From the IMG/VR virus record IMGVR_UViG_3300036766_002220, positions 1 to 48,528 of that record: DNA of 48,528 nucleotides; one strand, written 5' to 3'. The notes under the pieces are model-generated. The model worked only from the letters and a program-made list of their open reading frames with translations. It searched no databases and was not told the origin of the DNA. This document shows, one piece after another, positions 24,194-47,076 of the stretch. The DNA comes from a virus. A program made the position numbers and the translations under genes. How positions within the stretch are numbered: the stretch's first letter is position 1; each line of letters opens with the position of its first letter.

Positions 24194-25117
24194 TTACGCG
24201 CCCTTGAGGTTGTAGCCGCGGACGAACATCAGCTCCTCGGCGACCTTCACGTCGAAACGCACGCTGGCGACGACGATGATGACGCCGGCGGAGATGTCCT
24301 CGGCGATCTTGATCTTCACCTGGCGGTAGAAGCCCAGGTAGATGGCCCGCGGGTCTCCCAGGATGATCTGGGTGTTGCTCGAGCCGTCGACCGGGAACTC
24401 CGGCACCGAGTTGATCGGGTAGTCCGACCAGGTGACCCGCCCGGCCGTCTGGACCATCGTGTCGCCGAGCGGCGTCGCGCGGTCCGACAGGGAGTCCTTG
24501 TAGTCCAGCCGCGCCTGGCGGTTGGTGAAGTACTCGAGGGCGGGGTTCTCCGCGAACTCGTCCGGCATCGTCCGGTACATGTCGCGGAGGATGGTCTTGG
24601 TCAGCTTGACGCTGGCGCAGTTGGCGGTGAAGCTCGTGATCTGCAGCAGGATGCCGTTGAGCTTGGCGAGGACGGGGTCGGGCGAGGTGGTGTCGCCGCG
24701 GAGTGCCACGTACTCCATGTCGCGGCCGATGGCCTTCGAGAGCTCCTCGATGAGCGTGTCGCGGAACACGCCGCGCTCGATCTGGTCCTCGAGGGCCTCG
24801 TCGGTCACACGCATCTCGGCCTTGAACAGCTGGGCGTCGAGCGTGATCATGCCGAGGTTGGGCTTGGACCAGGCGGCCTGCGGCAGAGCCGTGCCTTCCT
24901 GGCCAGCGCGGAGCACGCGGTTCGCGAACCGCATCTTGTCGCGCTCTTCCTTCATCGCCCTCATCGGCGTGACGGTGACTCGCTGAAGCAGGACGGGCTG
25001 CTTGATGGCGAGCCGGATGAACTTGTCCGTCTGGGCCGGCTGGAGAAGACCGCCGCTCGTGAAGTCAGCGACTGCGATCTCCGCCTTCCGCAGGAGGGTC
25101 CTGTTTTCCGATGGCAT
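24194..25117 (-). CDS. Major capsid protein
   Basis: A 307-residue HK97-fold capsid protein. The N-arm and E-loop region (MRAMKEERDKMRFANRVLRAGQEG, then LPQAAWSKPNLGMITLDAQLFKAEMRVTDEALEDQIERG), the spine helix IEELSKAIGRDMEYVALRGDTT, and the closing P- and A-domain strands (NTQIILGDPRAIYLGFYRQVKIKIAEDISAG) are in the family order. It is compact for an HK97 capsid protein. It follows the scaffold-like gene and precedes the decoration-like gene, with hairpins after it. The N-terminal 20-30 residues could be trimmed by the XkdF-type protease encoded upstream. Confidence 0.9.
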   Translation of the reverse strand: MPSENRTLLRKAEIAVADFTSGGLLQPAQTDKFIRLAIKQPVLLQRVTVTPMRAMKEERDKMRFANRVLRAGQEGTALPQAAWSKPNLGMITLDAQLFKAEMRVTDEALEDQIERGVFRDTLIEELSKAIGRDMEYVALRGDTTSPDPVLAKLNGILLQITSFTANCASVKLTKTILRDMYRTMPDEFAENPALEYFTNRQARLDYKDSLSDRATPLGDTMVQTAGRVTWSDYPINSVPEFPVDGSSNTQIILGDPRAIYLGFYRQVKIKIAEDISAGVIIVVASVRFDVKVAEELMFVRGYNLKGA

Positions 25118-25169: not shown

Positions 25170-26993
25170 TTACGCGGACTCACGCTTCGCGAGGGCCTCG
25201 CGGTAGGCGGGATCGTTGTAGTTCTGGGGGAACAGGAGGGCGTCGGTGTCCGGGTCCGGCTCGGTGCCGGTGGACGCCGGCGGCACCACGTCCTGGCGCG
25301 CCTTGGCGATCACCGCCTGCAGCTCCCCGACCTCCTTGAGCGCGTCCTCGAGGCGCTTGGCGACCGCGTCGAGGTCCTCCTTCTTGAGAGGGTTGGGGGC
25401 CGTCTGGGTCGGCGAGGTCGGCTTGGTGGTCTGCTCGGGGGCGACCACCGTGGTGGACCCGCCCGGGATGGACGACCCGCTCGCGGCGCCGCCCGGGGCT
25501 CCGCCCTTCTCCTCGGGCTTCATCTCGGGTGGCGGGGGTCCGCCGCCAGCCACGGTCTCGACCGGCTTGCCGCAGTAGGCGCAGAACTTGCTGTCCGGCT
25601 GCAGCTTGGCCTTGCAAGCCTTGCACTCCATGTTGTTGCCTCCTGCGGCCTTGGCCGCTTGCTCTTCCTCGAGCTTCTTCTTGGCCTTGGCTGCCGCCTC
25701 GTCCTCCTCGACCTTGGCCTTCTTGGCCTTCTCCTCCTCGGCCGCCTTTCGCTTCTTCTCGTTCTCCTGCTCCTCCTCGAGCTCCTCGGGAGTCTTGCCG
25801 GCCTTGGCGATCTCGTCCTCGATGTCGTCCAGGCGCCGGCTGGCATCCAGGAGCAGGCCGAAGTCGGACATCTCGACCTCGTCGGCCTTCTTCACGTTGG
25901 GGTACTTCTCCGTGAGTCCCTGGAGGAGGGTCACGAGGCTTCGGATCTCGCGCATGCCCTTCCCTGCCTCGAAGCCGGGAGCCTTGGCCTTGGAGGAGAG
26001 GGAGAGCGCGCGCTCGGACACCTCTCGAAGGGTCTTCGAGAAGGCGCCGCCTGCCGCCTTTGCCGTCTGCATCGGGCATCGCTCCTTCGCCGCCTTGACG
26101 AGGTCGTGCAACGCGCCGATCTCCGTCTTCACGGCATCTGATGGGTTCTTGCTGTCGGCCATCTTGGCCAAGGTGGTGGCGCGATCCGTCACCTCCTTCA
26201 GCACCTGGTTCATCGCCATCGCGTGGGCGAACCCCTCCTCGCCTTCCTCCGAGATGGGAGGCAGGTTCGGCTTGGACTCGTTCTTCGCGACGGAGTACTG
26301 CGCGCTCAGGCCGCCGAGCTCGTAGACCAGCGTCTCGATCTCGGCGTGGATGTCACGGGTCACGGCCTTCTCGGAGATGATCTTCTGCGAGGACTGCAGT
26401 GCCATCTCCGCCACGCCGATCATCTGGCTCCCGAAGTCGCCCTTGAGGGTGGGGTACTTGCTCGACACCCGCGAGTCCGGCTTGGGGTACTTGTTGGCCA
26501 GCTGGTTCAGCAGGCCGATGATGGCCGCGAGCTCGTTGGTCAGGTCGACGGTCGCGGGGTCGGTCTGCAGACCCTGGACGAGGGCCAGTGCCTTCTCGCC
26601 GATCTGCCGAAGCACCTGGCTCGCGGGCCCGATCTGGCCCTTGTCGACCGGGGCGTGAAGCCGCGTCGCCTCGGCGATGAGCTCTGCGAGCTTCTGGGGG
26701 TGGTCGTTCTGCGCGATGCCCTTCTTCCACTGCTCGATGGCAGAGGAGAGGTCCGAGAGCACCTGACTGGCCTTCTCCAGGTCCTCTGTGCTCACCACCA
26801 TCGGGTTGTGAAGCTCGTCGCCGACGACTTCGAGCTCCTGCAGAGCTGCTCCCGACATTGTTTCCTCCTTGATCACTAGATAGCGCCGCTTGTTAGCGGC
26901 CCTATCGACAAGAGCGACAGCCGAGGGAGCAATGTCCCGCAGGCGACGCTTACCTTTGTTTCGCGCGGCTAGTGTAGACGGATCGATGGACAT
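25170..26993 (-). CDS. Scaffold-like capsid assembly protein with a zinc ribbon
   Basis: A 607-residue protein between protease and capsid genes. Residues 15-42 (RRLRDIAPSAVALVDRAANKRRYLVIKEE) match a short segment common at the start of phage capsid-assembly proteins (VSLVDRPANKRxFLVVK type). Residues 60-395 are long helical repeats; 400-452 is an extreme lysine/glutamate/alanine coiled coil; 455-477 is a C-x2-C...C-x2-C zinc ribbon (CKACKAKLQPDSKFCAYCGK); the rest is disordered with a final helix (VAKRLEDALKEVGELQAVIAKAR). I infer a scaffold or internal head protein. The first ATG (26993) has AGGTG upstream; an in-frame ATG at 26858 has a near-perfect AAGGAGGAAAC site, so two forms may be made. 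Confidence 0.7.
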   Translation of the reverse strand: MSIDPSTLAARNKGKRRLRDIAPSAVALVDRAANKRRYLVIKEETMSGAALQELEVVGDELHNPMVVSTEDLEKASQVLSDLSSAIEQWKKGIAQNDHPQKLAELIAEATRLHAPVDKGQIGPASQVLRQIGEKALALVQGLQTDPATVDLTNELAAIIGLLNQLANKYPKPDSRVSSKYPTLKGDFGSQMIGVAEMALQSSQKIISEKAVTRDIHAEIETLVYELGGLSAQYSVAKNESKPNLPPISEEGEEGFAHAMAMNQVLKEVTDRATTLAKMADSKNPSDAVKTEIGALHDLVKAAKERCPMQTAKAAGGAFSKTLREVSERALSLSSKAKAPGFEAGKGMREIRSLVTLLQGLTEKYPNVKKADEVEMSDFGLLLDASRRLDDIEDEIAKAGKTPEELEEEQENEKKRKAAEEEKAKKAKVEEDEAAAKAKKKLEEEQAAKAAGGNNMECKACKAKLQPDSKFCAYCGKPVETVAGGGPPPPEMKPEEKGGAPGGAASGSSIPGGSTTVVAPEQTTKPTSPTQTAPNPLKKEDLDAVAKRLEDALKEVGELQAVIAKARQDVVPPASTGTEPDPDTDALLFPQNYNDPAYREALAKRESA

Positions 26994-27121: not shown

Positions 27122-30100
27122 TTACCGTAACTCTTGAACTAGGGCTGTCCCCTCGATGCTCCATCCGGTGAGCCGGCCGTCCTTGATCGCCTCCCACAGC
27201 TTCTGATCGAGGATGTGCGCGCCGAGCATCCAGGTGCCCTTCTTGACGGGCTGGCCTTCAATCTCGAAGTCGACCGGCGCGATGTAGTTTTCCAGCACCT
27301 CGTACTGCGAGGACTGAAGTAGCGACTGATGCTGCAGACCCAGCATGTGGTTCTGCCGCATGAAGTGGAAGGCAGCCTGTCGGATGACTTCGGCGTCGTA
27401 GATGTCACCCTGCGAGTCGACCGTCTCGGGCTCCAGGACCACGCCGAGGACATACTGCTCGTCGGGCTTGTCCTTGTCGCTCGTCTTCTTCATGATCTCG
27501 AAGCGACCCTGGAAGTTCTTGACCATGTGGTCGAAGATCTCGTCCGCCGACTTCTTGATCTCGCTGTCGTCGAGGAGACCCATGATCTCCTTGAGACCGG
27601 AGGGCCGCTCGGCCGTCTTGTCGATCACCGTGGGGGTGAAGCCGCGGAAGCGCTTCTTCTCGGGGTTGGACTCATCGAGGAGCATCTCGGTGACTTCGAT
27701 GCGCACGACGTCACCCACCTTCGCCGCGATCTTGGTGTTGAAGGTCTTGCCGGCCTTCACGTAGATCTTGCCCTTGACCTCCACCGTCTCGGTGAAGCGC
27801 TTGGCTTCCTCGACTGACACAGGGCCAATGGCGTACATGAAATTGTGCACGCCCGGCGAGTCCTTGACGGGATGCGCGTCCCAGACGATGCCGCGAATCT
27901 CGCGGATCATCTTGAGCTTGGCCATCGAGTCTGTCTCGCGCAGCGTGACCGTGGCCTCGGCGCTCTTGAGCATCGCGCCCTCGGAGCCGGGCACCTTCCT
28001 GGCCCACTCGATGGCAGCCAGGCACTCCTTCTTCGTGTGCACGAGCTTGTGCGGCGTGAGGACGAGCCGGGTGTGCTTGCCCTTGAGGAACGCGGCCAGG
28101 ATGGGCAACCGCTCCTTGAGCGGCAAGGCCATCACGTTGCCCTTGCCCGGATCGTAGAGGATGTCGAAGACGTGCACGCGCACGTTGACGTCGCCCTTGG
28201 GTGAGGTCGAGCGGAAGTCGGCGAGCTCGCGTCGAGGCACAGGCGCGCCTTCGGTGGTGACGGCCATGAACTCGCCGTCGATCACGTAGGGTCCCTTGAG
28301 CTTGCCGAGCTCTTCCTTCAGCCCGGGCAGGTGATCGAGGAAGTTCGCTGGCGCGCCCTTGGCCCGCCAGATATCCTCAGAGATCATCAGCTGGCGACCC
28401 TTGGCGTCCTTCTGCATCGAGGCCCTGAAGCCGTTCCACTTGGGCTCGATGTAGATGCCGACCTTGAGCACGGCCTCGGTGGCAAAGTCCTTGAAGAGCC
28501 GCTCCATCTCCGTCGAGTGGAACTCGTTGGTCGCCCGCGGCGCGACCTTCATCGGCTTGTAGAAGGCCAGTGGACGAAGGCGCTCGCGGTCGTGCGTCTT
28601 GTCGTCGCTCGGCTTGATGTTCGCCGGGTCCCAGACCTGCACGTCGGCGAGCTTCTGCCCACCGGCGAGTGTCATCGTGCGGATGCTCTCCTTCTTCTCG
28701 ACAGGGTCCTTGCCCCGACAATTCGTGCATGGTTTCTTGCCCTTGTCAGTATCATCTTGACCAGTCCTCGGATGTTCTATATCCTGACTGGCGGTGCGGG
28801 AGGGTTGATGCTTATGTAGTATATCCCCTTGTGCCCCGAGGTCAGCCGAGAGGTAGTATTTTGTGATCACACGCTTGAAGGTGTGATCTACCATCCTCAC
28901 GTTCGAGTCGTTGAAGAAGCCCTCGGACACGAGCTCATCGCGGATGCCTTTGCGCTCCTTCTCGTCCTTGGCGTGCCAGTACTGCCACTGCTTGGGCACG
29001 GCCGACTTGAGCCCAGGCGGCAAGCAGGCCCAGCCCTGGGGTGGAATCCGACCGACGGTGACCGCGCGTCGCTTCACGACTGACGGCACGAGGCTCTTGG
29101 TCAGCATCGCGATGTAGTAACTCTCGCCCTCGGGCGTCTTGCGCCCGGCCTCGGCCTCTGGATCGTGCGCCGGTCCGTGACCGGAGATGATGCGGAAGGT
29201 GAGCAGGCCGAAGAACTTCGGGTCGTGCTCGAGGAACCACTCCTGGAAGTAGGGCTCGGTCGTGCCGCGGGACACCGTCGGCCTCGCCAGGGACACCATG
29301 AAGGCCTTCTTGAGCCGCGTCGCACCGACCGTGCCTGGAGCGAACTCCTCGGCGTTGATCCGCAGCCACTCCTCGGGCTCGGGCGCCTTGGGCGTCGCGT
29401 AGACGCGGGCGTTGACCAGGGGCTTGTTCCACTTCGAGCCGTCCCTGTCGAAGCTCGAGACGAAGGCCTTGGCCTCGGCGAGCGTCTCGAACTCGTGAGA
29501 GACCCCTGGCTTCTGGATGGCCAGCGTGTAGCCGGCGAGCATGGCGCCCTGCTTGATGCGCAGGTCGCCGTGGATCGACTTGCCGCGGATGTGAGCCTGC
29601 AGGACGGCCGGGAAGGTCGTCTCCTTGGCCGGGAGCCTGGTGTTGAGGTCAGCAGCCTTTTCGAGCATGACCTCCAGCGGGTCGTAGAGCATCCCCGCGT
29701 CGCGCATCTCGATGACGGCGCGGGAGTCGTCGCGGCGTCGGACGACGAGGTCGTAGAGCGGCACGTGGGCGGCGAAGGGGCCAGCGGCCGAGACGTCGCT
29801 GGCTGGCGCGTCGGCGCCGTGGTAGCTCGTGCGGGATGAGAGCTCCGGCGGCAGCATGCGCCCCAGGCGCACCTTGACGATGTGCGCCGTGACCGGGTCG
29901 AGCGGTCCCTTGATGAGGATGTCTAGGTCGTTCTGCGACTGACCGTTGTTGGCCACGCCCCCGACGATGTGGATGAAGGGCGAGCGGATGAGGAACTCCT
30001 CGTGGAAGTGCGGCAGGACCTCCTCGAGGTGGATCGTGCTGGGCTCGTCGTCGCCCTCGGCCAGGTAGGACTCGCCGCTCGCGCGGCAGGGGGCGTAGCG

Positions 30101-32677
30101 GTTGGACGGCCCGGCCTTCTCGGTGGGCAGGGGCACACCGCGGCGGCGCATCTCCTCGACGATGACCTGCCGCGCGGTGGTCGCATCCTCCGGCGAGAGC
30201 CCACCGATGGGCGACGACTCCTTGCCCTCGGCCGTGCTGAGGATGCGCTCGAGCTCGAAGAGCAGCCGCTTGAGCTCGTCGTCGTGCAGGTTGCGGAGCT
30301 TGTCCGGCGAGATGCCACGCCAGGTGAGCGCCGGCAGCTGGTTGCCCTCCGGAGAGTTCTGGTGGGTGGCCAGGGGCGGCACGTCGGTGGTGGCCACGGC
30401 GCCACCACTGTGGGGCTCGTCTCCGGAGCTGTTGTTGCCGATGAGGAAGGCTCCAGAGTCAGTGTCGCCGCGCTTGGCCAGGGCATCAGGGAGCGTGACG
30501 GCCGGCCCGAAGCGACGAGAGGCCACGGGCTGCTTGAGTCGGAGCGGCGGGTCGTAGGACGCGATGAGCCGCAGCCGCATGAAGAAGACAGGCGACTCGG
30601 TCGAGAACTCCTCACGGGAGAAGGGGTCGATGCCCTCGCGCATGTCGTCGGGGATCTTGGAGAGGTCCGCGAACTTGACCGCGTTGTCAATCGCGACAAC
30701 GCCCCAGACGTACTGGCCGTCGGCCTTGGTGGGCTCGAGTTCGTTGACCAGGAACTGCCGCTCGCCGGCGCGGCCCGTGCGCTCGAGGCGGGAGAGCATG
30801 CCCGTCTCGCGCTTCTCGTGCAGCAGCTTCATGTTGAAGGCCGGGTCCGGGAGCTTGAGCGTGGGCAGGCTGCCCTCGGGCTTCTGGAACTTCGAGACCT
30901 CTTCCTCGCTGCGCATGACCTCGGTGCGTGCCGCGACGGGGTCGCTGCTGTAGAGGTCGGAGCGCGGGCCGCGGTTCTCCGAGCCGGCCCCGTAGGGCGT
31001 CAGCTTGTCGTCCCACGGCGAGGTGGGGATCAGCGAGTCGCCCTCGCGGTACTCGGCGTCCAGATCCGAGAACTGCTGCAGCACCTTGATGGCGTTCTCG
31101 GTGATCGAGGCGAGGCGGGTCTTGGGCGGCAGGAAGGTGAGCGTCTCCTTGAGTCGTTGGAGCAGTCGCTCGACCTGGATGAAGATGCTGTAGTCGGCCA
31201 GCGGCTCGACGCGGTCCTGCTCGGACTGGGCCGGGCGCAGCTTGCAGATCTTCGCGTACTCCTCGATCACAGACTTGATGACGTGCGGCACACGCGCCAT
31301 CAACTCGATGACCGGTCGGGTGACGGGCATCAGCTTGGGAGCCCGGCGGGCGAAGAGGTCTGCGATGGGCAGCACGCCCTCGGCGATGACGCGGATGCCG
31401 TGGGTCTGCTTGATGACCTCGACGGGCAGCTTCTCGATCTCGTCATCCCGAAGGTCTCGCTTGAACCGGGGCTCGTCCACGACGCCCCCGTTGCCACTGG
31501 GCCGCTGCCATTCTCGTGGCTCAGGGAACGCGGTCACCTTCTCCACCTGATGCGCGAAGAGGCGCCGGGCCGTGGGCCAGAGCTTCTTACGCTCCTCTTC
31601 GGTGATGCAGTGCTCCTTCTCCCGCCGACGGAACTCGGCGATGGAGATGACCTTGTGGCGTGACAGCTTGACGACCCCGTGGACGTGGCTGTCATCGGCC
31701 ATGTAGAGCTCGTTGCCGCCGACGTCGATGGGGAGAGTCTTGACGACGAGCGTCTTCTTGCCCGCGATGATCATCCGCGCATGATGCGACGATAGGATCA
31801 AGGCGTGCTTGGGCCCCTGCGCCGCGGGACGAGTGGTCTTCACCTCCTCGAGGGAACGGGCAACCTCTCGCGCCTTCTCCGCGAGCTCCGTCAGTTTGTC
31901 GAGAGCGCTCATCGCTTTCCTTTCGCTCGGTGCCAGCTGGCCCCGCGTGAGACTGAAGACCGCCCCATCGCGGGCGAGGTAGATGGTCACGTGCGGCGCT
32001 GCCTCGTGGAACATCTTGCGCGCGCCCGTCTCGCCAGCCTCGGTGATCCAATCGCCGAAGTGCGAGAAGATGGCCTGCTTCACACCGTGCTTGCCCACCC
32101 AGCCGAGCTGCGTCGTGATGGACGTGTGGCCCACGACCTCCCCGCGTAGACGACGCACCATGCCCCCATGGAAGTAGGAGGCATCCCCGAGGTACACGTC
32201 GAGCCCCTTGAAGAATTGCTGACCGAGACCGACGGAGATGACGTCGGAGACCCAACCGATGATGCCATCTTCTGCGGTCTCGATCTTCAGGGCGATGGAC
32301 GGGGCCCTGGTGGAGTGCTGCGTGTGGTACGCGGTGACGGTGAGGTGGTCGATCTTCTGCGGAACGCCTTCCTTCAGGATGCGCCGATCCTTGATGCCCT
32401 CGTAGCCCACCTTCAGCGCAGCGTCCGTCGACTTGGACATGAAGACCGGCACGTCGACGGCTTCTCCCTTGAGACCCTCGACATGGTCGGAATGGGCGTG
32501 GGAGAGCACGATGGCCGTGGGCGCCACTCGCTTCAGGTCACCCTGGTGGTTCTTGCCGAAGTCGAAGAGGACGCGCTCCTTGCCGCTCTCCAGGAGCCAG
32601 GCCGTGTTGCCGTGGTGCAGACTTGTGCCTGTGACCGTCTCGTCGCCCTTCGTCCCGAGGAAGGTGATGCGAACCAT
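27122..32677 (-). CDS. Polyprotein: MBL-fold, ASCH, NTase, LigD-like ligase and XkdF prohead protease
   Basis: An 1851-residue multi-domain protein between portal and scaffold. In order: a metallo-beta-lactamase fold (HAHSDH near 60-65, later GDAS and SHFGDW, residues 1-250); an ASCH-like domain (HALILSSHHARMIIAGKKT, about 290-385); a long helical linker; a nucleotidyltransferase-like motif (IVGGVANNGQSQNDLDILI, about 900-920); a LigD phosphoesterase-like block (QAHIRGKSIHGDLRI, about 1026-1040); a linker with CTNC and a dispersed DNA element; an ATP-dependent DNA ligase with OB-fold (EPKWNGFRA near 1410, IDGEF near 1465, FDILY, EGAMLKS near 1564, LKM near 1588); and a C-terminal XkdF-type prohead protease (YVLGVVLEPETVDSQGDIYD near 1741, GLQHQ, GWSIEGTA). 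The start is ATG at 32677 with GAGG upstream. The protease may cut the chain so that repair enzymes end up in the capsid (inference). Confidence 0.85.
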   Translation of the reverse strand: MVRITFLGTKGDETVTGTSLHHGNTAWLLESGKERVLFDFGKNHQGDLKRVAPTAIVLSHAHSDHVEGLKGEAVDVPVFMSKSTDAALKVGYEGIKDRRILKEGVPQKIDHLTVTAYHTQHSTRAPSIALKIETAEDGIIGWVSDVISVGLGQQFFKGLDVYLGDASYFHGGMVRRLRGEVVGHTSITTQLGWVGKHGVKQAIFSHFGDWITEAGETGARKMFHEAAPHVTIYLARDGAVFSLTRGQLAPSERKAMSALDKLTELAEKAREVARSLEEVKTTRPAAQGPKHALILSSHHARMIIAGKKTLVVKTLPIDVGGNELYMADDSHVHGVVKLSRHKVISIAEFRRREKEHCITEEERKKLWPTARRLFAHQVEKVTAFPEPREWQRPSGNGGVVDEPRFKRDLRDDEIEKLPVEVIKQTHGIRVIAEGVLPIADLFARRAPKLMPVTRPVIELMARVPHVIKSVIEEYAKICKLRPAQSEQDRVEPLADYSIFIQVERLLQRLKETLTFLPPKTRLASITENAIKVLQQFSDLDAEYREGDSLIPTSPWDDKLTPYGAGSENRGPRSDLYSSDPVAARTEVMRSEEEVSKFQKPEGSLPTLKLPDPAFNMKLLHEKRETGMLSRLERTGRAGERQFLVNELEPTKADGQYVWGVVAIDNAVKFADLSKIPDDMREGIDPFSREEFSTESPVFFMRLRLIASYDPPLRLKQPVASRRFGPAVTLPDALAKRGDTDSGAFLIGNNSSGDEPHSGGAVATTDVPPLATHQNSPEGNQLPALTWRGISPDKLRNLHDDELKRLLFELERILSTAEGKESSPIGGLSPEDATTARQVIVEEMRRRGVPLPTEKAGPSNRYAPCRASGESYLAEGDDEPSTIHLEEVLPHFHEEFLIRSPFIHIVGGVANNGQSQNDLDILIKGPLDPVTAHIVKVRLGRMLPPELSSRTSYHGADAPASDVSAAGPFAAHVPLYDLVVRRRDDSRAVIEMRDAGMLYDPLEVMLEKAADLNTRLPAKETTFPAVLQAHIRGKSIHGDLRIKQGAMLAGYTLAIQKPGVSHEFETLAEAKAFVSSFDRDGSKWNKPLVNARVYATPKAPEPEEWLRINAEEFAPGTVGATRLKKAFMVSLARPTVSRGTTEPYFQEWFLEHDPKFFGLLTFRIISGHGPAHDPEAEAGRKTPEGESYYIAMLTKSLVPSVVKRRAVTVGRIPPQGWACLPPGLKSAVPKQWQYWHAKDEKERKGIRDELVSEGFFNDSNVRMVDHTFKRVITKYYLSADLGAQGDILHKHQPSRTASQDIEHPRTGQDDTDKGKKPCTNCRGKDPVEKKESIRTMTLAGGQKLADVQVWDPANIKPSDDKTHDRERLRPLAFYKPMKVAPRATNEFHSTEMERLFKDFATEAVLKVGIYIEPKWNGFRASMQKDAKGRQLMISEDIWRAKGAPANFLDHLPGLKEELGKLKGPYVIDGEFMAVTTEGAPVPRRELADFRSTSPKGDVNVRVHVFDILYDPGKGNVMALPLKERLPILAAFLKGKHTRLVLTPHKLVHTKKECLAAIEWARKVPGSEGAMLKSAEATVTLRETDSMAKLKMIREIRGIVWDAHPVKDSPGVHNFMYAIGPVSVEEAKRFTETVEVKGKIYVKAGKTFNTKIAAKVGDVVRIEVTEMLLDESNPEKKRFRGFTPTVIDKTAERPSGLKEIMGLLDDSEIKKSADEIFDHMVKNFQGRFEIMKKTSDKDKPDEQYVLGVVLEPETVDSQGDIYDAEVIRQAAFHFMRQNHMLGLQHQSLLQSSQYEVLENYIAPVDFEIEGQPVKKGTWMLGAHILDQKLWEAIKDGRLTGWSIEGTALVQELR
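28757..28824 (+). promoter_or_regulatory. Dispersed promoter-like element, copy 2
   Basis: Inside the linker of the polyprotein gene the plus strand reads TTGACC, 17 bases, TATCCT, then GGCGGTGCGGGAGGGTTGAT at 28790-28809 and TATAT. The TTGAC box is exactly 33 bases from the GGCGG block, as in copy 1 at 10404, and the 20-base block differs by one base. The surrounding linker is AT-richer than the flanking domains. Confidence 0.45.
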
Positions 32678-32687
32678 GGGTGCCTCG

Positions 32688-33077
32688 CTAGGTAGGCGAC
32701 CAGAGCTTCTTGTCGCCGGCGGCCGGGTCGTACGTGACGCCGTCGAGCTCGCAGCGCAGCGCATGCGCCATCAGGTCGACGGTGCGCTCCATCGAGTAGC
32801 CGAGGTCTCCACGAGCGTGGCGCACCCAGGCCTCGCAGATGCGGAAGCGGCGCTTGATCTCGTCCCTGGTGGGGTGGATCGTCTTGAAGGGCTCGCGCTG
32901 GGCGTCCTCGGCGAAGCTCCGCCAGATGACGTGCTCCGTGGCCACCATGAAGACCTTCAGCTCCTCCGCGTTGCGGTAGAGGGCCGCGAAGGGCTTGTGG
33001 TCGATGTCGGCCACGTGACCGGCAAGCTCTGCCGGTGTGAGGACCATCCTCCCCTCTTCCTTCTTCTCGTCGCTCAC
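32688..33077 (-). CDS. Small conserved-position protein of unknown function
   Basis: A 129-residue protein starting at a GTG that overlaps the portal stop (GTGA), so it is translationally coupled to the portal. The N-terminus is charged (MSDEKKEEGRMVLTPAEL), followed by helices (KPFAALYRNAEELKVFMVATEHVIWRSF; PTRDEIKRRFRICEAWVRHARG) and a C-terminal KKLWSPT. No motif is recognised. AGGTATAG lies upstream. Its location between portal and protease suggests a head-assembly role. Confidence 0.65.
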   Translation of the reverse strand: MSDEKKEEGRMVLTPAELAGHVADIDHKPFAALYRNAEELKVFMVATEHVIWRSFAEDAQREPFKTIHPTRDEIKRRFRICEAWVRHARGDLGYSMERTVDLMAHALRCELDGVTYDPAAGDKKLWSPT

Positions 33078-34951
33078 GGTTCCTCTCCTATACCTGCTAG
33101 GTCACCTCCGATGGGAGGCAACGCGCGCCCCACCGGGCGCGGCATGCGCGGCACCTGCTGGCCGCCGTTTCGAGTCTTGGTCTTGCCTGTGTCCTTGCCC
33201 CCCCGACCGCCATCGTTGCGCGTGGGCCGCGGGCGCTCGTCCATGTCCTCGTCGGCCGGTTGGTTCGCCGGCGGTTCCGACTCCAGCGCGTAGACGTCGC
33301 CACCGCCGCGAAGCTGCGCGAGGAGCAGCGGGAGCGGCCGGTTCGACCACTCCTCGGAGACCACGGCGAAGGCTCTGTTGAAGATGTCTGCGGCGAGCTG
33401 ACGAGCCTCGGACGGCAGGAGCACGCCGACCTTCATGAGGCGCTCGATCATCATCGCGGTGGCCTCCGGATCGCGCACGAGCGGCGAGTTCGAGCGGAAG
33501 GTCCAGAAGGTGATGCCGAGCTCGGCCATGATGTGCCGATCCATCCACACGTCGAAGCTGTGGCGCTCGGGCTCGAAGACTTGCTCCTCGGCGAACTTGA
33601 GCGAGGCGATGGCCGTCGCCCGGTTGATGTGCTGATCGTCACCGCGGAGCAACCGTGGGAGTCGGAAGCTCTGGGCGATCTTCATCTCGTTCGCCTTGTC
33701 GTAGTCCTGGAACAAGGCGTCCTGCAGCTGCGTCTCGCGCAGCGGCACGAACTGGATCTTGGGAACCTGGCGCGGCATGGCATCGCCGCCCGAGCCCTTC
33801 TGCGACTCGGCCTCGATGACCAGGATGCGATGGATACCCTTCTTGCCCTTGAGATGCTCGTCGATGTACTCCTCAATCCGCTGCGCGACGCCCTTGCCGA
33901 AGCGACCTCCAGAGCAGAGCAGGGCGAGCGGCGGCACGACGTTGTTGTGGAAGTAGTTGAGGTTGACCTCGTCGAGCTCACGGGATCCCAGTACGGCCGG
34001 CAGGTTCGAGATCCAACGCGGCACGCCGTAGTCGTCGGCGGGCGTCGGGATGTTGAAGTGGACGAGCTCCGTGCCCGGCAGCGCGTTGCGCTCCTTCTTG
34101 AGCATGTCCTCTTCCGATGCGTAGAAGGCACCCGTCTGACGCGACATCACGCGCGGATCGCCGTACTCCTTGAAGTAGACGGGCTTGCTCTTCTTGCGGA
34201 TCAGCATGTACTTGCGGAACCGGCGGAAGCGCTTGACCTCCATCCAGCTGATGTCGGTGACCTTGATCTTCTCAACGATCTCCACGTCGGCTTCGCCCTC
34301 GGGCATGAGACGGATGAAGAGAGGCTTGACGTAGTAGATGTTGGCGAGTTCCTTGAGCCGGTTGCGGGTGATCTCCCAGAAGGCGTTGCCTGTCACCTCG
34401 AGGTCCTGGCGCGTGCGCCGACGGAGCTCGACGAAGGAGAACTGCGGGCAGACATAGTTGAAGAAGGCACGGAGGCGCGCGTACTCGAGCCGGGCAACGC
34501 GCTGCAGGCCCGTCTTGCGCTCCTCGACCTCGGCATCGGTCGGCTCGATGACCTTGTCCGCGCTGATCTTGTTGTCACGCTGCGCGAGAACACGCTCGTA
34601 GAAGATTGCGTCGCGAACGCGGGTGTCCGCCTCGAGCTTCGACGACAGATCGATGGCCGGCATGAAGTGATGGCCGAAGGAGTCGATGTTCGTCAGGTAG
34701 GCCTCGACGCAGGGGCGGAGCCATGACGACGACTCGTAGATTCTGTAGAGCTTGACGAAGTCGTAGGGTGGCGAGAGCGCGCCGCCAGGCAGCCTCCGCT
34801 CGTCGTTGAAGACCATTTCGACGATGGAGGTGATGTCGACCCGGGAACCCTCGAGGACGTCCGCCTTCACCACCACGTCCCCCCGGTCGCGGGATGCTGC
34901 CGCGGATTTTCTGACTGGTTTGGCTGCCTTCGTAGACCTATTAGTCGCCAC
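33074..34951 (-). CDS. Portal protein
   Basis: A 625-residue portal of the PBSX/XkdE-like group, the dodecameric ring through which DNA enters and leaves the head. The family order is visible: an early YESSSWLRPCVEAYLTNIDSFGHHF, FSFVELRRRTRQDLEVTGNAFWEI, VHFNIPTPADDYGVPRWISNLPAVLGSRELDEVNLNYFHNNVVPPLALLCSGG, and the barrel region QVPKIQFVPLRETQLQDALFQDYDKANEMKIAQSFRLPRLLRGDD. The C-terminus from about residue 560 is disordered and rich in arginine and glycine. The start is GTG at 34951, with GGGAG nine bases upstream; it is the first gene after the operon promoter. Terminase genes are not in this window. Confidence 0.92.
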   Translation of the reverse strand: MATNRSTKAAKPVRKSAAASRDRGDVVVKADVLEGSRVDITSIVEMVFNDERRLPGGALSPPYDFVKLYRIYESSSWLRPCVEAYLTNIDSFGHHFMPAIDLSSKLEADTRVRDAIFYERVLAQRDNKISADKVIEPTDAEVEERKTGLQRVARLEYARLRAFFNYVCPQFSFVELRRRTRQDLEVTGNAFWEITRNRLKELANIYYVKPLFIRLMPEGEADVEIVEKIKVTDISWMEVKRFRRFRKYMLIRKKSKPVYFKEYGDPRVMSRQTGAFYASEEDMLKKERNALPGTELVHFNIPTPADDYGVPRWISNLPAVLGSRELDEVNLNYFHNNVVPPLALLCSGGRFGKGVAQRIEEYIDEHLKGKKGIHRILVIEAESQKGSGGDAMPRQVPKIQFVPLRETQLQDALFQDYDKANEMKIAQSFRLPRLLRGDDQHINRATAIASLKFAEEQVFEPERHSFDVWMDRHIMAELGITFWTFRSNSPLVRDPEATAMMIERLMKVGVLLPSEARQLAADIFNRAFAVVSEEWSNRPLPLLLAQLRGGGDVYALESEPPANQPADEDMDERPRPTRNDGGRGGKDTGKTKTRNGGQQVPRMPRPVGRALPPIGGDLAGIGEEP

Positions 34952-36070: not shown

Positions 36071-36094
36071 TCAGCTCGCAAAGGAGAAAAGGCA

Positions 36095-38038
36095 ATGGGT
36101 CGCAACATCTTTCGGCAAGACACGCAGATCAGAAAGTCGGAGAGCTACACCGACAACATCGCGCCGAGCGAGGCCAACTACGAGACCGCGCCGGCCAACA
36201 TCAACGACGATCTCAACACGCTGCGGTCGCAGGCGCACAACTTGCTCAAGAATCAGGCGGGCAAGTGGTACGACGATCTCAACGTGCCGTCGACGCTCGA
36301 GACCGGCGCCCAGCGCGGTGTGAACGACCTGAACTCCGCGCTGCACCTGATCGAGAAGAAGCGCGTCCTTCGCGATGTGACCAACGTCGGCGTCGACGTC
36401 ACGGTCCCGGCGCAGGCGAAGTCGACCGCCAACCTGCTGCTCAACAGCGCTCCTCTCGATCAGGAGCTGGTGACCATCGGCACGAAGTCCTACAAGTACG
36501 TGACGGCCGCCCCGTCGGCCGAGGGCGAGGTCCTGATCGAAGTGACCGCCAGCGACTCGCTGGACAACCTCATCGCCGCGATCATGCACACCTCGGCGCC
36601 CGGCAAGTACCAGGCCGCCGCGGTGCATCCCGATGTCGTCGCCGCCGCTGGCGCGGGCGACTCCATGGACATCACGGCCAAGGTCTTCGGCAGCGCGGGC
36701 AACACCATCGCCACGTCGGAGACGCTCAGCGATGTGGCTTCCGTGTGGACCCAGACCCCGGCCACCCACATGATCAACGGCGCTGGCGACGTTGTCGTCC
36801 TCCAGGCGGGTGAGCTCCCCGACAAGAAGACCGCGGCGGTCGGCGTGGTGGCGACACTTGGCACTGTGCTCGCCTACAACGTGAACTTCACGGCGCAGTC
36901 GCTGGCCGAGGTCGCCGGTGGCACCAACGCCCTGAGCCCTCGCAACCTGATGCTGATCGTCGACGCGGAGACGGGAGATCCCCTCCTGTCCGGCGGTCGT
37001 GAGATCTGGGGCCTCTTCCAGTCCGAGTCGGCCACCGACGGCCACACGCTGACGGGGAACGTCGGCACCCGCGCGCAGATCACCTTCGTGCGGCCCACCG
37101 CCACCTTCGACGACCTCGAGTTCGTGCCCATCGCCGACATCGCGGGCAAGATCGTCAACTACACCACGCGCGAGCGCGTGCGCCTCGAGGACCTGACCGA
37201 GTTCGACTTCCTCCGCGGCGCCGTCGTCGACGTGGGCTCCGGCTCGGGCGTCATCGACCGGCAGCACGCCTACGACAACCAGGGGACCACCCCGGTCGAG
37301 CTGGCGGTCAACGCCATCCTCGATCTCAACGCGGCCGGCATCCACTGGGAGATCCGCGACCTGGCGAACGCCATCCTCCTCGACATCATCGAGGGCTCGG
37401 CCGGCAACAGCACCTTCCAGGTCGGGGCAGCCGTCGGCACCTTCGACATCAACGCCGTCCTCAACGACTTCCTGAACGGCATCGCGGTCGACACCGGCGC
37501 GGCCGGCACCAAGATCCAGGTCGGCGTCACGCCGAACCAGATCGACAGCGGCGGGGCACTGAACATCCAGACCGCAGCGGCCGGGCTGCTCAGCCTCCTC
37601 TCGGGCGGACAGCTCTCCTTCGCCGACAAGTGGATCCACGACTGGACCCCCGGCGCCCTGCAGCTCTCCGACTCCGCCGCCGAGTGGACCGCCTTCGAGG
37701 CTCAGTTCGGCGAGGTCTCCCTGCTCAACGCCATCACGCAGGCCGCCGCCGGCGGCGCGCTTCGCAAGGTCCACGCGACCGTGACCGCCATCGTCAACGC
37801 CACCAACAACGTCAGCCTCGCCGACGCCAACGTCGACGTCGCCTGGGGAGATCTCTCCAAGGGCGACTTCCTCGAGGACTACGACGTCTTCGTGAACGGC
37901 GCCTACAACCGCCCGGCCGCGGGCGCGACCGAGGACGTGTACCCCGGTTCCACCCTGGGGCCGCCGCAGGGCAAGCTCAAGTTCACCTACAAGCTCCACG
38001 TCGGTGACGAGATCGCGCTCTTCGACCGCGCCGCGTAG
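36095..38038 (+). CDS. Large virion structural protein, probably abundant
   Basis: A 647-residue protein. Residues 1-85 are helical (MGRNIFRQDTQIRKSESYTDNI, then INDDLNTLRSQAHNLLKNQAGKWYDDL and LNSALHLIEKKRVL), like an attachment domain. The rest is beta-rich with alanine, threonine and glycine, including ITFVRPTATFDDLEFVPIADIAGKIVNYTTRERV and a closing PPQGKLKFTYKLHVGDEIALF. No catalytic motif is seen. A perfect 12-bp hairpin follows the stop, and a strong AAAGGAGAAAAGG precedes the ATG, so high expression is likely. It may be a head fibre, collar or decoration protein. Confidence 0.7.
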   Translation: MGRNIFRQDTQIRKSESYTDNIAPSEANYETAPANINDDLNTLRSQAHNLLKNQAGKWYDDLNVPSTLETGAQRGVNDLNSALHLIEKKRVLRDVTNVGVDVTVPAQAKSTANLLLNSAPLDQELVTIGTKSYKYVTAAPSAEGEVLIEVTASDSLDNLIAAIMHTSAPGKYQAAAVHPDVVAAAGAGDSMDITAKVFGSAGNTIATSETLSDVASVWTQTPATHMINGAGDVVVLQAGELPDKKTAAVGVVATLGTVLAYNVNFTAQSLAEVAGGTNALSPRNLMLIVDAETGDPLLSGGREIWGLFQSESATDGHTLTGNVGTRAQITFVRPTATFDDLEFVPIADIAGKIVNYTTRERVRLEDLTEFDFLRGAVVDVGSGSGVIDRQHAYDNQGTTPVELAVNAILDLNAAGIHWEIRDLANAILLDIIEGSAGNSTFQVGAAVGTFDINAVLNDFLNGIAVDTGAAGTKIQVGVTPNQIDSGGALNIQTAAAGLLSLLSGGQLSFADKWIHDWTPGALQLSDSAAEWTAFEAQFGEVSLLNAITQAAAGGALRKVHATVTAIVNATNNVSLADANVDVAWGDLSKGDFLEDYDVFVNGAYNRPAAGATEDVYPGSTLGPPQGKLKFTYKLHVGDEIALFDRAA

Positions 38039-38054
38039 TCGAAGTGCAACAAAC

Positions 38055-38093
38055 CTCGAGGGGACCGAGGAACTGTCCTCGGTCCCCTTCGAG
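38055..38093 (+). terminator. Strong hairpin after the 647-residue structural gene
   Basis: A 12-bp perfect stem (GGGGACCGAGGA/TCCTCGGTCCCC) with the stable-looking loop ACTG; outer CTCGA/TTCGAG bases extend it with one bulge. No U-run follows, so it may be a 3'-end protector as much as a terminator. Confidence 0.6.
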
Positions 38094-38114
38094 CACAGGT
38101 AAAGGAGATTCACC

Positions 38115-38705
38115 GTGACCATCGAGAAGGCAGAGATCAAGCAAGCCACCTACAAGGAGGTCGGCGTCAGGGTCGAGGAGATGCTCGACCAGACGGAGCG
38201 TGCAGGGCATGAAGCAGCTGGCGCGCGCAAGGCGCTGCTGGCGCACCTGCAGAACCTGATCGGCATCCAGGCGGCCACGGACGCCGAGCTCGAGAAGAGC
38301 ATCCCCGACGCAGCCACCCTCAAGCTGATCAAGGAGTGGCTCGGCAAGACCATCATCTCCACCCAACAGTTCTCTCGCCACTGGGGCAACGTGGAGCTGC
38401 AGATGGCCGGCGAGGCGGCCGGGCACAAGGCCACGCACGACATGCTGCAGAAGCTGATCACCATCTCCGAGGGTCAGCAAGAGACACTCAAGGAAGCCAT
38501 CGCGCAAGGCGACGTGAAAGTGGCCGAGGATGGCGAGCTCGAAGCAGTCCCCGGCGCCCATCGTCCGGTCGGCGTGCGACCCATGAGCATGATGCAGCAG
38601 CGTCGAGCCGAGGAGACCGCGGCATCTGCAACGCCCCCGGCCGAGGCGCAAGAGGCGAAGTCCCGACAGGGCAAGGGCAAGGGCAAGGAAAAAGGCAAGA
38701 AGTAG
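38115..38705 (+). CDS. Helical virion-associated protein with a basic tail
   Basis: A 196-residue protein starting at GTG (38115) with AAAGGAG upstream. It is largely alpha-helical: YKEVGVRVEEMLDQTERAGHEAAGARKALLAHLQNLI, LKLIKEWLGKTIISTQQFSRHW, AAGHKATHDMLQKLITISEGQQETLKEAI; the end is a lysine/glycine-rich tail (GKGKGKEKGKK) that could bind nucleic acid or polyanions. There is no known domain. It lies between two virion-like proteins. Confidence 0.6.
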   Translation: MTIEKAEIKQATYKEVGVRVEEMLDQTERAGHEAAGARKALLAHLQNLIGIQAATDAELEKSIPDAATLKLIKEWLGKTIISTQQFSRHWGNVELQMAGEAAGHKATHDMLQKLITISEGQQETLKEAIAQGDVKVAEDGELEAVPGAHRPVGVRPMSMMQQRRAEETAASATPPAEAQEAKSRQGKGKGKEKGKK

Positions 38706-41683: not shown

Positions 41684-41886
41684 TGCACTGCCGGTGCGAC
41701 TACTGTGGGACAGTCGAGAGGAACGATACGACGTCATCCTACCCCGTCGGCTGGCTCACCAGGTTCATCTACAAGCCCGATGGGACGAACCGGGTGCTGC
41801 ACTTTTGCAGCACGCGCTGCGCGTTCCTCGAGCAGGAGCGGGCGCTCTACATCGCGCCGAAGGAGCAGCCGTGCCCACGACCATGA
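41683..41886 (+). CDS. Small zinc-finger protein
   Basis: A 67-residue protein with MHCRCDYCGTVE (C3, C5, C8) and FCSTRCAFLEQERAL (C42, C46), a likely treble-clef or MYM-type zinc finger with a C-terminal helix. Start and stop overlap neighbouring genes (TGATG, ATGA), a tightly packed operon. No further function can be given. Confidence 0.6.
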   Translation: MHCRCDYCGTVERNDTTSSYPVGWLTRFIYKPDGTNRVLHFCSTRCAFLEQERALYIAPKEQPCPRP

Positions 41887-42293
41887 CCAAGGCCCCGCTG
41901 ACCAGCTACGAGTACGAGGCTCAGGTGCTTCGCATCGTCGACGGTGACACCGTCGAGCTCTACCTGACGAAGACCTTCGAGACCATCGCCGACTTCGGCT
42001 TCCGCATCTACCACCGGATGCAAGAGACCGTCTCGACGCGGCAGAACTTCCGCCTGGCTGGCATCAACGCGCCGGAGCTCAAGGGCGCCTCGCACGCCGC
42101 TGGCGTGAAGGCATCCGAGGCACTCAAGAAGCTGCTCGATGTCGGCGCAGTCCGCGCTGAGACCTTCAAGCCGGACAAGTATGGGCGCTGGCTGGTCCGT
42201 CTCTACGTGAAGCAGCCGGACAACACCGAGCTCTGCGCCAACGACGAGATGATCAAGAACGGCAACGCAGTGCCCTACATGGAGAACGAATGA
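41883..42293 (+). CDS. Staphylococcal nuclease-like (thermonuclease) protein
   Basis: A 136-residue protein of the SNase-like OB-fold: VLRIVDGDTVELYL (calcium-binding strand and the D-G-D signature), FRLAGINAPELKG (the R and E of the active site, as in the R-x-x-G-I-x-x-P-E motif), and DKYGRWLVRLYV (second active-site arginine). No signal peptide is seen, so it would act in the cytoplasm or after release. It may degrade host DNA or process nucleic acids. ATGA overlaps link it to both neighbours. Confidence 0.8.
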   Translation: MTKAPLTSYEYEAQVLRIVDGDTVELYLTKTFETIADFGFRIYHRMQETVSTRQNFRLAGINAPELKGASHAAGVKASEALKKLLDVGAVRAETFKPDKYGRWLVRLYVKQPDNTELCANDEMIKNGNAVPYMENE

Positions 42294-44117: not shown

Positions 44118-44735
44118 ATGAAGACCAGACACATTGCACTGCTCGCCGCGCTGCTCCTGGCTGCTCCAGCATCGGCCGACGAGACCAAGAAGGTCGAGGT
44201 GAAGGCTGGCAAGACCGTCAAGGTCGAGCTCAAGGTTCCCAGCAAGACCGAGGTGAAGATCTCCCCCACCGCACCGGTCACGCCCGCTGTGCCAAAGGCC
44301 GTGCCGGCGCCGGCCCCCGCGCCGGTGAAGGTGATCGCGCCCGCGAGTCAGCCCGCCATCCCGGTGGTCGACCCGGACGACCTGGGCGGTATCCTCAAGC
44401 AGATCTTCGCCTCGGCCAAGGGCAGCAAGTGGGCCCTGCTCGTCGGCTTCATCGTGATGCTGCTGACCTGGTTCGTGAACCGGATGCTCAAGCAGAAGAT
44501 CCCGACGAACGTCCTGCCCTGGCTCGCCATCGGCCTGTCAACTGTCGCCTCGGTCGCCTTCGCCCTGGCCACAGGAGTCGGATGGCTGAATGCCATCATC
44601 GTCGGATTCCAGCAAGGGCTCGTGGCCGCAGGCAGCTGGTCGGCGGTGGGCAAGTACATCCCCGGGCTCAAGAAGAAACCCACCCCCGCGCCAGTCGAGC
44701 AACCAGCACCGCCTGACGAGAAGGCTGTCGGATGA
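44118..44735 (+). CDS. Holin-like membrane protein with signal peptide
   Basis: A 205-residue protein. Residues 1-20 look like a cleavable signal peptide (MKTRHIALLAALLLAAPASA). A basic and then proline-rich segment spans about 22-85. Three hydrophobic spans follow near 110-127 (WALLVGFIVMLLTWFV), 136-154 (LPWLAIGLSTVASVAFALA) and 158-175, then a proline-rich tail. The C-terminal half has the pattern of phage holin-like proteins (WALLVG ... NVLPWLAIGLS ... GWLNAIIVGFQQGLVAAGSW). It lies next to a lipoprotein and near a transglycosylase, so a role in lysis is likely. AAAGGAG precedes the ATG. Confidence 0.65.
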   Translation: MKTRHIALLAALLLAAPASADETKKVEVKAGKTVKVELKVPSKTEVKISPTAPVTPAVPKAVPAPAPAPVKVIAPASQPAIPVVDPDDLGGILKQIFASAKGSKWALLVGFIVMLLTWFVNRMLKQKIPTNVLPWLAIGLSTVASVAFALATGVGWLNAIIVGFQQGLVAAGSWSAVGKYIPGLKKKPTPAPVEQPAPPDEKAVG

Positions 44736-46449: not shown

Positions 46450-47076
46450 TTAGGAAGCCGGTGTGGCACCGACGGCGTGGGAAGTGCTGGAGATGATGGC
46501 GATCAGCATGCCACGGACTTCCTCGTGAAGGTCCTCGAGAGACCTGTCGTTCAGGATACGAAAGTCCCAGTCCGTGAAGTGGTCGAGTGAGGTCTCGGAC
46601 GCGTGCTGGTCCTCCTCTGCTGAGGTCGCCGGCGGGACGAGCTCAACCGGCCGGTCGACCAGCACCACATAGCCGCCGAGCCGCCGGAGGCCTTCCACCT
46701 CGCTCGGGAAGCGCACGTCCGAGAGCAGCACTGAGGTCTCCAGGTCGGCCGCCGCCCGACGCTCCACGGTCTGAACCCAGATGTCCTGCCCGAAGGTAGC
46801 TCTCATCGCCTCAGTGCCCCCACGCTGCAAGATGTCGCGCGGCGTGAGGCCCCAGAACTCGTCGACGGTGAACTTGGCCTCACCGTAGAGCTGCTCGTCC
46901 GAGAGCCCGAAGACGCCTCTACCGATGCCCTCCTTGAGCGACGCCGCGAAGGCGTCGAGCCGGACCTTGTAACCCCACTCCTCGAGGAGCTCCTTGGCCA
47001 TCTGGCAGCAGGTGTCCTTGCCCCGACGGCGTTTGCAACCGAAGCCTATGATGAGCCGAGGACCCATGGCCGTCAT
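46450..47076 (-). CDS. Deoxynucleoside monophosphate kinase (T4 gp1-like)
   Basis: A 208-residue kinase that phosphorylates dNMPs for phage DNA synthesis. The P-loop is at the N-terminus: IIGFGCKRRRGKDTCCQMAKELL (G13 to T22, the GKDT ending typical of phage dNMP kinases and T4 gp1). The middle has the LID-type TPRDILQRGGTEAMRATFGQDIWVQTV and LLSDVRFPSEVEGLRRLGGYVVLVDRP, the latter shared with the family. It overlaps the ribbon-helix-helix gene by four bases (ATGA), so the two are co-transcribed. Confidence 0.85.
   Translation of the reverse strand: MTAMGPRLIIGFGCKRRRGKDTCCQMAKELLEEWGYKVRLDAFAASLKEGIGRGVFGLSDEQLYGEAKFTVDEFWGLTPRDILQRGGTEAMRATFGQDIWVQTVERRAAADLETSVLLSDVRFPSEVEGLRRLGGYVVLVDRPVELVPPATSAEEDQHASETSLDHFTDWDFRILNDRSLEDLHEEVRGMLIAIISSTSHAVGATPAS

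Follow-up and report, generated by a model that had tools for sequence, protein, structure and literature searches.

A putative phage polyvalent protein that joins LigD-like DNA end-repair domains to a C-terminal XkdF-type head protease

Phage polyvalent proteins, some of which carry an assemblin-like peptidase that is always C-terminal, are described in passages of Iyer et al. (2017; PMC5512222), and section 8 of that article proposes that the C-terminal assemblin-like peptidases process polyvalent proteins during virion assembly. In phage T4, as outlined in passages of PMC10893049, internal head proteins are placed in the prohead, head proteins are cleaved by the prohead protease, and the internal proteins are ejected with the DNA. 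The present analysis concerns IMG/VR virus record IMGVR_UViG_3300036766_002220 (48,528 bases, possibly a fragment; the whole stretch is hereafter called the window), in which one gene encodes a chain of 1851 amino acids (aa) that ends in an XkdF-type head protease and carries, ahead of it, a Pol-beta-type nucleotidyltransferase (NTase), a LigD-type 3'-phosphoesterase (PE) and an ATP-dependent DNA ligase (Table 1). The gene had been singled out in a model-made reading of the letters (the original prediction). We lean towards the reading that its product is a polyvalent protein, in which the C-terminal head protease serves to bring a LigD-like end-repair kit into the prohead and to free it there, the kit then being ejected with the DNA.

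Two marks of phage-type polyvalent proteins, at least two unlike domains in one chain and a portal gene context, are both found at this locus, and the best reading of the window protein is that it belongs to this type, delivery with the DNA being predicted. It resembles the polyvalent proteins of Iyer et al. in having several unrelated enzymes per chain, a head gene context and a C-terminal peptidase, whereas the Pol-beta NTases in the relevant sections of that article are, unlike the one in the window phage, limited to conjugative elements (PMC5512222). T4 uses a separate capsid-targeting sequence, according to the passages of PMC10893049, whereas in the window protein the carrier role would fall to the protease itself. 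Like LigD, the bacterial end-joining ligase, the window chain combines a 3'-phosphoesterase fold with an ATP-dependent ligase, but it has a Pol-beta-type NTase in place of the LigD polymerase and a head protease at its end. The archaeo-eukaryotic-primase-type polymerase domain of LigD gave no match in profile searches of the window protein, and Ku was found in none of 16 records, many of them fragments; membership in LigD or in non-homologous end joining was rejected on these two grounds. It is proposed that NTase, PE and ligase work like LigD, with the Pol-beta-type enzyme replacing the polymerase. Some mycobacteriophages use a phage Ku together with the host LigD for genome circularisation. 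There, too, the ends of the entering genome are joined, but Ku is phage-made and LigD host-made, whereas the PE and ligase of the window are phage-made and Ku was not found in the records searched.

The terminal domain is of the XkdF type, as the original prediction had it: Pfam family PF14550 (Peptidase_S78_2) matches residues 1735–1846 (E-value, 4e-26; 91.8 bits against a cut-off of 24), and the His, Glu and Ser are intact. All 85 proteins with an aligned residue retain H1783, E1796 and S1840, and in a larger residue set one of 103 XkdF rows has Gln in place of the Glu; by their invariance and by protease class, we infer that these residues form the active triad of XkdF. An S78-type protease other than XkdF was found in none of the four records searched, and the XkdF domain, the only head-protease candidate found, is predicted to carry out prohead proteolysis. 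Since genes for a portal, a scaffold-like protein and a major head protein adjoin the fusion gene, together with tail sheath and tape measure genes, it is placed by annotation in the head region of a contractile-tailed phage; no terminase was found among the scanned window genes. The same arrangement recurs in related loci, which are labelled with L-numbers (L002, L003, L004 and so on). Counting only those with at least 2.5 kb on the relevant side of the XkdF gene, 63 of 70 have a portal upstream; on the downstream side, 73 of 75 have a major head protein and 71 of 75 a scaffold-like gene. Long and short XkdF forms give similar figures. The scaffold-like gene starts with a EVSLVDRAANKRRFLVVK-like segment in 73 of 90 cases by a strict pattern (one of the 90 being the L007 XkdF protein itself). 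In PHROG 3017 such a segment (residues 2–32) precedes XkdF (33–156) within a single protein, and the protease and scaffold are therefore considered to belong together.

Head proteases are established, as a class, to act inside proheads. Because the head protease acts there, forms the C-terminus and adjoins the scaffold gene, entry of the whole chain is the simplest reading, and release by cleavage follows from what head proteases do. The claim that the protease carries the enzymes into the prohead, made in the original prediction, is thus well supported by context, namely by the sole protease candidate, its intact His, Glu and Ser, and its position among portal, scaffold and head genes.

The other domains had also been named correctly, as judged by Pfam, the PE fold model, the NTase motif and a weak ASCH profile match, and their active residues, which might have been lost, are mostly kept. 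By sequence profile, the PE block has no PDB match at an E-value of 1. With an AlphaFold model built from 12 relatives (predicted local distance difference test, pLDDT, 89.7), the seven best Foldseek rows were all LigD 3'-phosphoesterases, to which the model had VIA Z values of 9.4–13.8 compared with 3.1 for the next row, and we are confident that the modelled block has a LigD-type 3'-phosphoesterase fold. The window PE retains H1029, H1036, D1038 and R1040. An AlphaFold model of NTase and PE from three sequences (pLDDT 33) was not used. Most relatives have a second PE-like domain, XTRA, which matches LigD phosphoesterases by sequence (E-value about 1e-4); its match list also holds many SUMO rows that match a single short stretch, mostly with E-values of about 0.2 (9e-5 for one construct), and these are taken as chance matches. 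No separate XTRA is present in the window, and an XTRA call there is taken to overlap PE. The G...DxD...D motif of the NTase, comprising GS/GG, DxD and a third Asp, is complete in the window (GGVANNGQSQNDLDI ... PLYDLVV), and the NTase profile matches Pol X weakly (E-value, 0.19–0.25), a designed protein, Peak6, ranking above at 0.16. At the three carboxylate positions of the NTase, Asp stands in 13, 13 and 16 of the 19 rows, some of the weak rows, such as L088, looking spurious. The ligase is matched by PF01068 at residues 1405–1589 (E-value, 1e-15, well above the cut-off) and has motifs I, III, IIIa, IV and V; its profile gave no PDB match at an E-value of 0.01. All but one of 26 rows have the motif I lysine, and the motif itself reads KxNG rather than KxDG in 22 of the 26, which is a family trait.

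The 1851-residue frame of the original prediction is single and intact. An open frame on the minus strand spans 27122–32764, with its upstream-most ATG at 32764, and the ATG at 32677 was chosen as the start because a GAGG box precedes it and L002 has the same start. In a whole-protein scan, full-length intact relatives of the fusion were found in L002 and L003 (59% in the best segment) and an intact one lacking the metallo-beta-lactamase (MBL) fold in L004 (43%), so that the frame is not broken in relatives and an assembly artefact was ruled out. An in-frame insert of about 360 aa lies in the ligase OB region of L002 (8793–9884) and of L003; it starts with Ser, ends with HN before Thr, and weakly matches Pfam Intein_splicing (E-value, 9e-4), so it is probably an intein at a conserved ligase site.

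Fusion to XkdF proved to be common. Two scans with the XkdF domain, yielding 34 loci and then the best 80 of 157, supplied the 95 rows used. At least 150 residues precede XkdF in 63 of 89 complete-start proteins and at least 300 in 41 of the 89, near-duplicate contigs counted. After thinning at 50% identity, 38 of 50 have at least 150 residues before XkdF and just three of 50 have more than 60 after it; XkdF is therefore nearly always the C-terminus, and the long N-terminal extensions rule out a chance fusion. Pfam payloads were scanned in 35 XkdF proteins, mostly picked for long extensions: 15 carry a D12 adenine methyltransferase, six a DNA ligase and five a class-11 methyltransferase, two a 2H phosphoesterase, and one each a uracil-DNA glycosylase and an inorganic pyrophosphatase (InPase), some having two, while 11 have no payload above the cut-off. 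The uracil-DNA glycosylase stands ahead of XkdF in L044 (4822–6069) and the InPase in L086 (4677–8360); a pyrimidine-dimer glycosylase stands ahead of NTase-ligase-PE, without XkdF, in L012 (6871–10596). Stand-alone XkdF proteins, among them gp048 of Pseudomonas phage PaP1 (L138) and those of other Pseudomonas phages, are labelled 'DNA methyltransferase' in many records, a label perhaps carried over from methyltransferase-XkdF fusions; PaP1 gp048 itself, with 156 aa that are nearly all XkdF, gives no sign of being such a fusion. A 2H-XkdF fusion is present in a cultured phage: gp18 of Arthrobacter phage Laroye (YP_009603008.1) resembles the window protein in having its payload ahead of a C-terminal XkdF and its gene downstream of portal and MuF genes, but is only 373 aa long, with a single 2H phosphoesterase as payload.

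The range of payloads bears on where the enzymes act. They might enter with XkdF and mend nicks or gaps as, or after, the DNA passes the portal, ejection being unneeded; the gene does adjoin portal and scaffold, and T4 needs DNA ligase for encapsidation, going by the title of Zachary and Black (1981) as cited in PMC10893049. Repair during packaging nevertheless seems unlikely to us, as the payload of many relatives is not a ligase but a methyltransferase, a 2H phosphoesterase, InPase or uracil-DNA glycosylase, and such enzymes fit action in the host better. Because the payloads vary, delivery to the host is favoured.

The repair domains keep company with one another. With our own profiles, 22 of 88 distinct proteins were found to have PE, 19 NTase, 14 a ligase (full in 12) and three MBL. 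All 12 full ligases occur with PE and 10 of the 12 with NTase, where a PE call may be an XTRA-like copy, the two being related; leaving out ANMV-1, L012 and L051, which had been fetched by payload similarity, PE still accompanies nine of nine. The P values for module co-occurrence take no account of kinship. When loci found with PE seeds were added, NTase, PE and full ligase stood together in 24 of 113 distinct proteins, in two module orders (NTase-PE-ligase and NTase-ligase-PE); 21 of the 24 have XkdF (17 representatives at 90% identity), and those without are in ANMV-1, L012 and L170. The PE seeds were three fusion proteins. A PE alignment was obtained for 37 fetched loci, in 31 of which the protein ends in XkdF: all of the nearer 30 are fused, and of the distant seven (L170–L176) only one. 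The ANMV-1 virus protein (AJP62006) is like the window protein in that a single chain, encoded directly after a portal gene, comprises NTase, ligase, PE and a further PE-like domain, but differs in its order, NTase-ligase-PE, and in lacking XkdF. The L051 protein, ASCH-MBL-ligase without XkdF, likewise directly follows a portal gene, on a contig labelled Thermoplasmata; the PE profile had two matches in 292 archaeal genomes of that phylum. No portal was found near L012.

The ligase counts also allow the chain to be seen as a cytoplasmic polyprotein, cut before or during assembly, with XkdF merely cutting out enzymes that serve late replication and repair. In nine of the 10 ligase-positive records (16 searched) no ATP-dependent ligase occurs besides that of the fusion or cassette, and an NAD+-dependent ligase was found in none of nine records, so the fusion or cassette ligase could serve replication. 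We hold this quite improbable, however: head proteases work inside proheads, the gene lies in the head block, the early need for ligase fits a late gene poorly, and the L061 record has a separate 429-aa ligase elsewhere.

A third alternative is that host defences are the chief target of the delivered domains, with MBL acting on RNA or cyclic-nucleotide signals and with ligase and NTase acting on nuclease damage. The best NCBIfam matches of MBL are a cyclic-nucleotide phosphodiesterase (E-value, 8e-7) and RNase Z (2e-5), both far under their cut-offs, and payloads such as methyltransferase, 2H and InPase agree with the role in counter-defence that the corresponding parts of PMC5512222 see for polyvalent proteins; 2H and InPase also occur there. 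Counter-defence as the chief role has little probability in our estimate, given that the most constant core, NTase-PE-ligase, is an end-repair set and that MBL is rare among the 88 proteins.

In the preferred reading, carriage into the prohead followed by delivery, the chain would be made late, together with the head proteins, as its operon position suggests. Family function and gene order indicate that XkdF must enter the prohead core to act, and the N-terminal enzymes would then enter too. Prohead entry of the whole chain is thus the step that context supports well; the subsequent cleavage, ejection and repair we infer. At maturation the protease would cut the linkers, so that the enzymes are freed or trimmed inside the head, from which the freed enzymes would exit with the DNA via portal and tail. 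In the new cell, the Pol-beta-type NTase, the LigD-type 3'-phosphoesterase and the ligase would repair and rejoin nicks, gaps or ends in the incoming genome, and such repair would aid circularisation or help the genome to survive attack by nucleases. MBL and ASCH may add trimming, signal-cleaving or recognition functions, the least certain part.

Several points weigh against this scheme. Virion carriage and cleavage are predictions from sequence and gene context, and a chain of 1851 aa would be a large cargo for a head. A search for cleavage motifs in 25 proteins (14957 linker residues, 20 shuffles) revealed none beyond a weak enrichment: the best linker pattern, KA.D, occurs in 18 of the 25 compared with a shuffle maximum of 16 and comes partly from the first XkdF strand, and a KAGPS segment is common only to the window, L052 and L054. 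The window PE has Gln at 1145, an active-site position occupied by His in 11 of 25 rows, and six of the 37 PE-seeded loci lack XkdF. Comparison of the window with its relatives gave no conserved internal start that would yield free XkdF; the window does have a start codon with a Shine-Dalgarno-like box 36 residues before XkdF, absent from L002, and some free XkdF could be made from it.

More tentatively, and as a possibility we consider somewhat doubtful, the head protease may be a general, swappable carrier of virion enzymes, with DNA-repair or DNA-modifying ones attached ahead of it, and a widespread lineage may carry a Ku-independent LigD analogue (Pol-beta-type NTase, LigD-type phosphoesterase and ligase) that is packed, freed and ejected and mends or circularises the genome early. 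The class itself, polyvalent proteins with a C-terminal assemblin-like peptidase, is already published, whereas both the payload of ligase, PE and NTase and the wide range of payloads exchanged ahead of XkdF appear new. The words 'DNA ligase' and 'glycosylase' are absent from the main text of PMC5512222, and the open-licence literature, supplements excluded, gave no account of a head protease to which a ligase or LigD-type phosphoesterase is fused. If the scheme holds, many uncultivated phages would have in their virions a ready-made DNA end-repair kit, with consequences for genome damage, for circularisation and for attack by nucleases at entry, and the fusions would be a source of phage LigD analogues. 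A simple rule for reading virion contents from sequence would follow as well, in that whatever is fused before a head protease goes into the head, and the 2H-XkdF fusion of the cultured phage Laroye makes carriage and cleavage directly testable.

Table 1. Positions of the fusion gene, its predicted domains and the adjoining head genes in the window.
Feature	Position	Strand	Basis or remark
Putative polyvalent protein gene, MBL-ASCH-(helical)-MID-NTase-PE-ligase-XkdF, 1851 aa	27122..32677	-	
GAGG ribosome-binding box	32683..32686	-	Precedes start 32677; L002 has a GAGG box too
MBL-fold hydrolase, residues 1-279, HxHxDH motif 60-65	31841..32677	-	PF12706 at cut-off
ASCH-like domain, residues 284-388	31514..31828	-	Weak profile match
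Conserved block MID, residues 600-730	30488..30880	-	In 7/88 proteins; not named in the original prediction
Pol-beta-type nucleotidyltransferase (NTase), residues 890-993	29699..30010	-	Motif and weak Pol X profile match
LigD-type 3'-phosphoesterase (PE) with C-terminal extension, residues 1024-1276	28850..29608	-	Fold search with an AlphaFold model
ATP-dependent DNA ligase with OB fold, residues 1364-1685; motif I lysine K1413	27623..28588	-	
XkdF-type head protease, residues 1739-1845; H1783, E1796, S1840	27143..27463	-	PF14550
Portal protein gene, upstream of fusion	33074..34951	-	phrog_12 E 2e-25; PF04860 E 9e-13
Scaffold-like gene opening with AVALVDRAANKRRYLVIK	25170..26993	-	Scaffold role predicted by location
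Major head protein gene	24194..25117	-	phrog_1623 and phrog_10

At the N-terminus of the chain, Pfam PF12706 matches residues 52–207 with an E-value of 4e-6, exactly on the cut-off, and H60, H62, D64, H65 and H121 of MBL are kept in three of three proteins. The ASCH block, which has no Pfam match, gave a profile match to TTHA0113 (2dp9, 1wk2; E-value, 0.004–0.006), which we take to be an ASCH protein.

Some further genes of the window were noted. The scaffold-like protein has a zinc-ribbon-like stretch at residues 456–478 (best E-value, 7e-5, under the cut-off). Between the portal and fusion genes lies a 129-aa frame without a Pfam match (32688–33077), and at this spot L004, too, has a frame that ends similarly (WxPT). 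Another frame, of 692 aa (36071–38149), lies upstream of the portal and has neither a PHROG nor a Pfam match. Farther along, a holin-like protein (44118–44735) and a deoxynucleoside monophosphate kinase (46450–47076) are encoded, as is a staphylococcal-nuclease-like (SNase-like) protein (41694–42293; PF00565, E-value, 7e-10), and HHTV-2 too has an SNase-like gene near its head genes.
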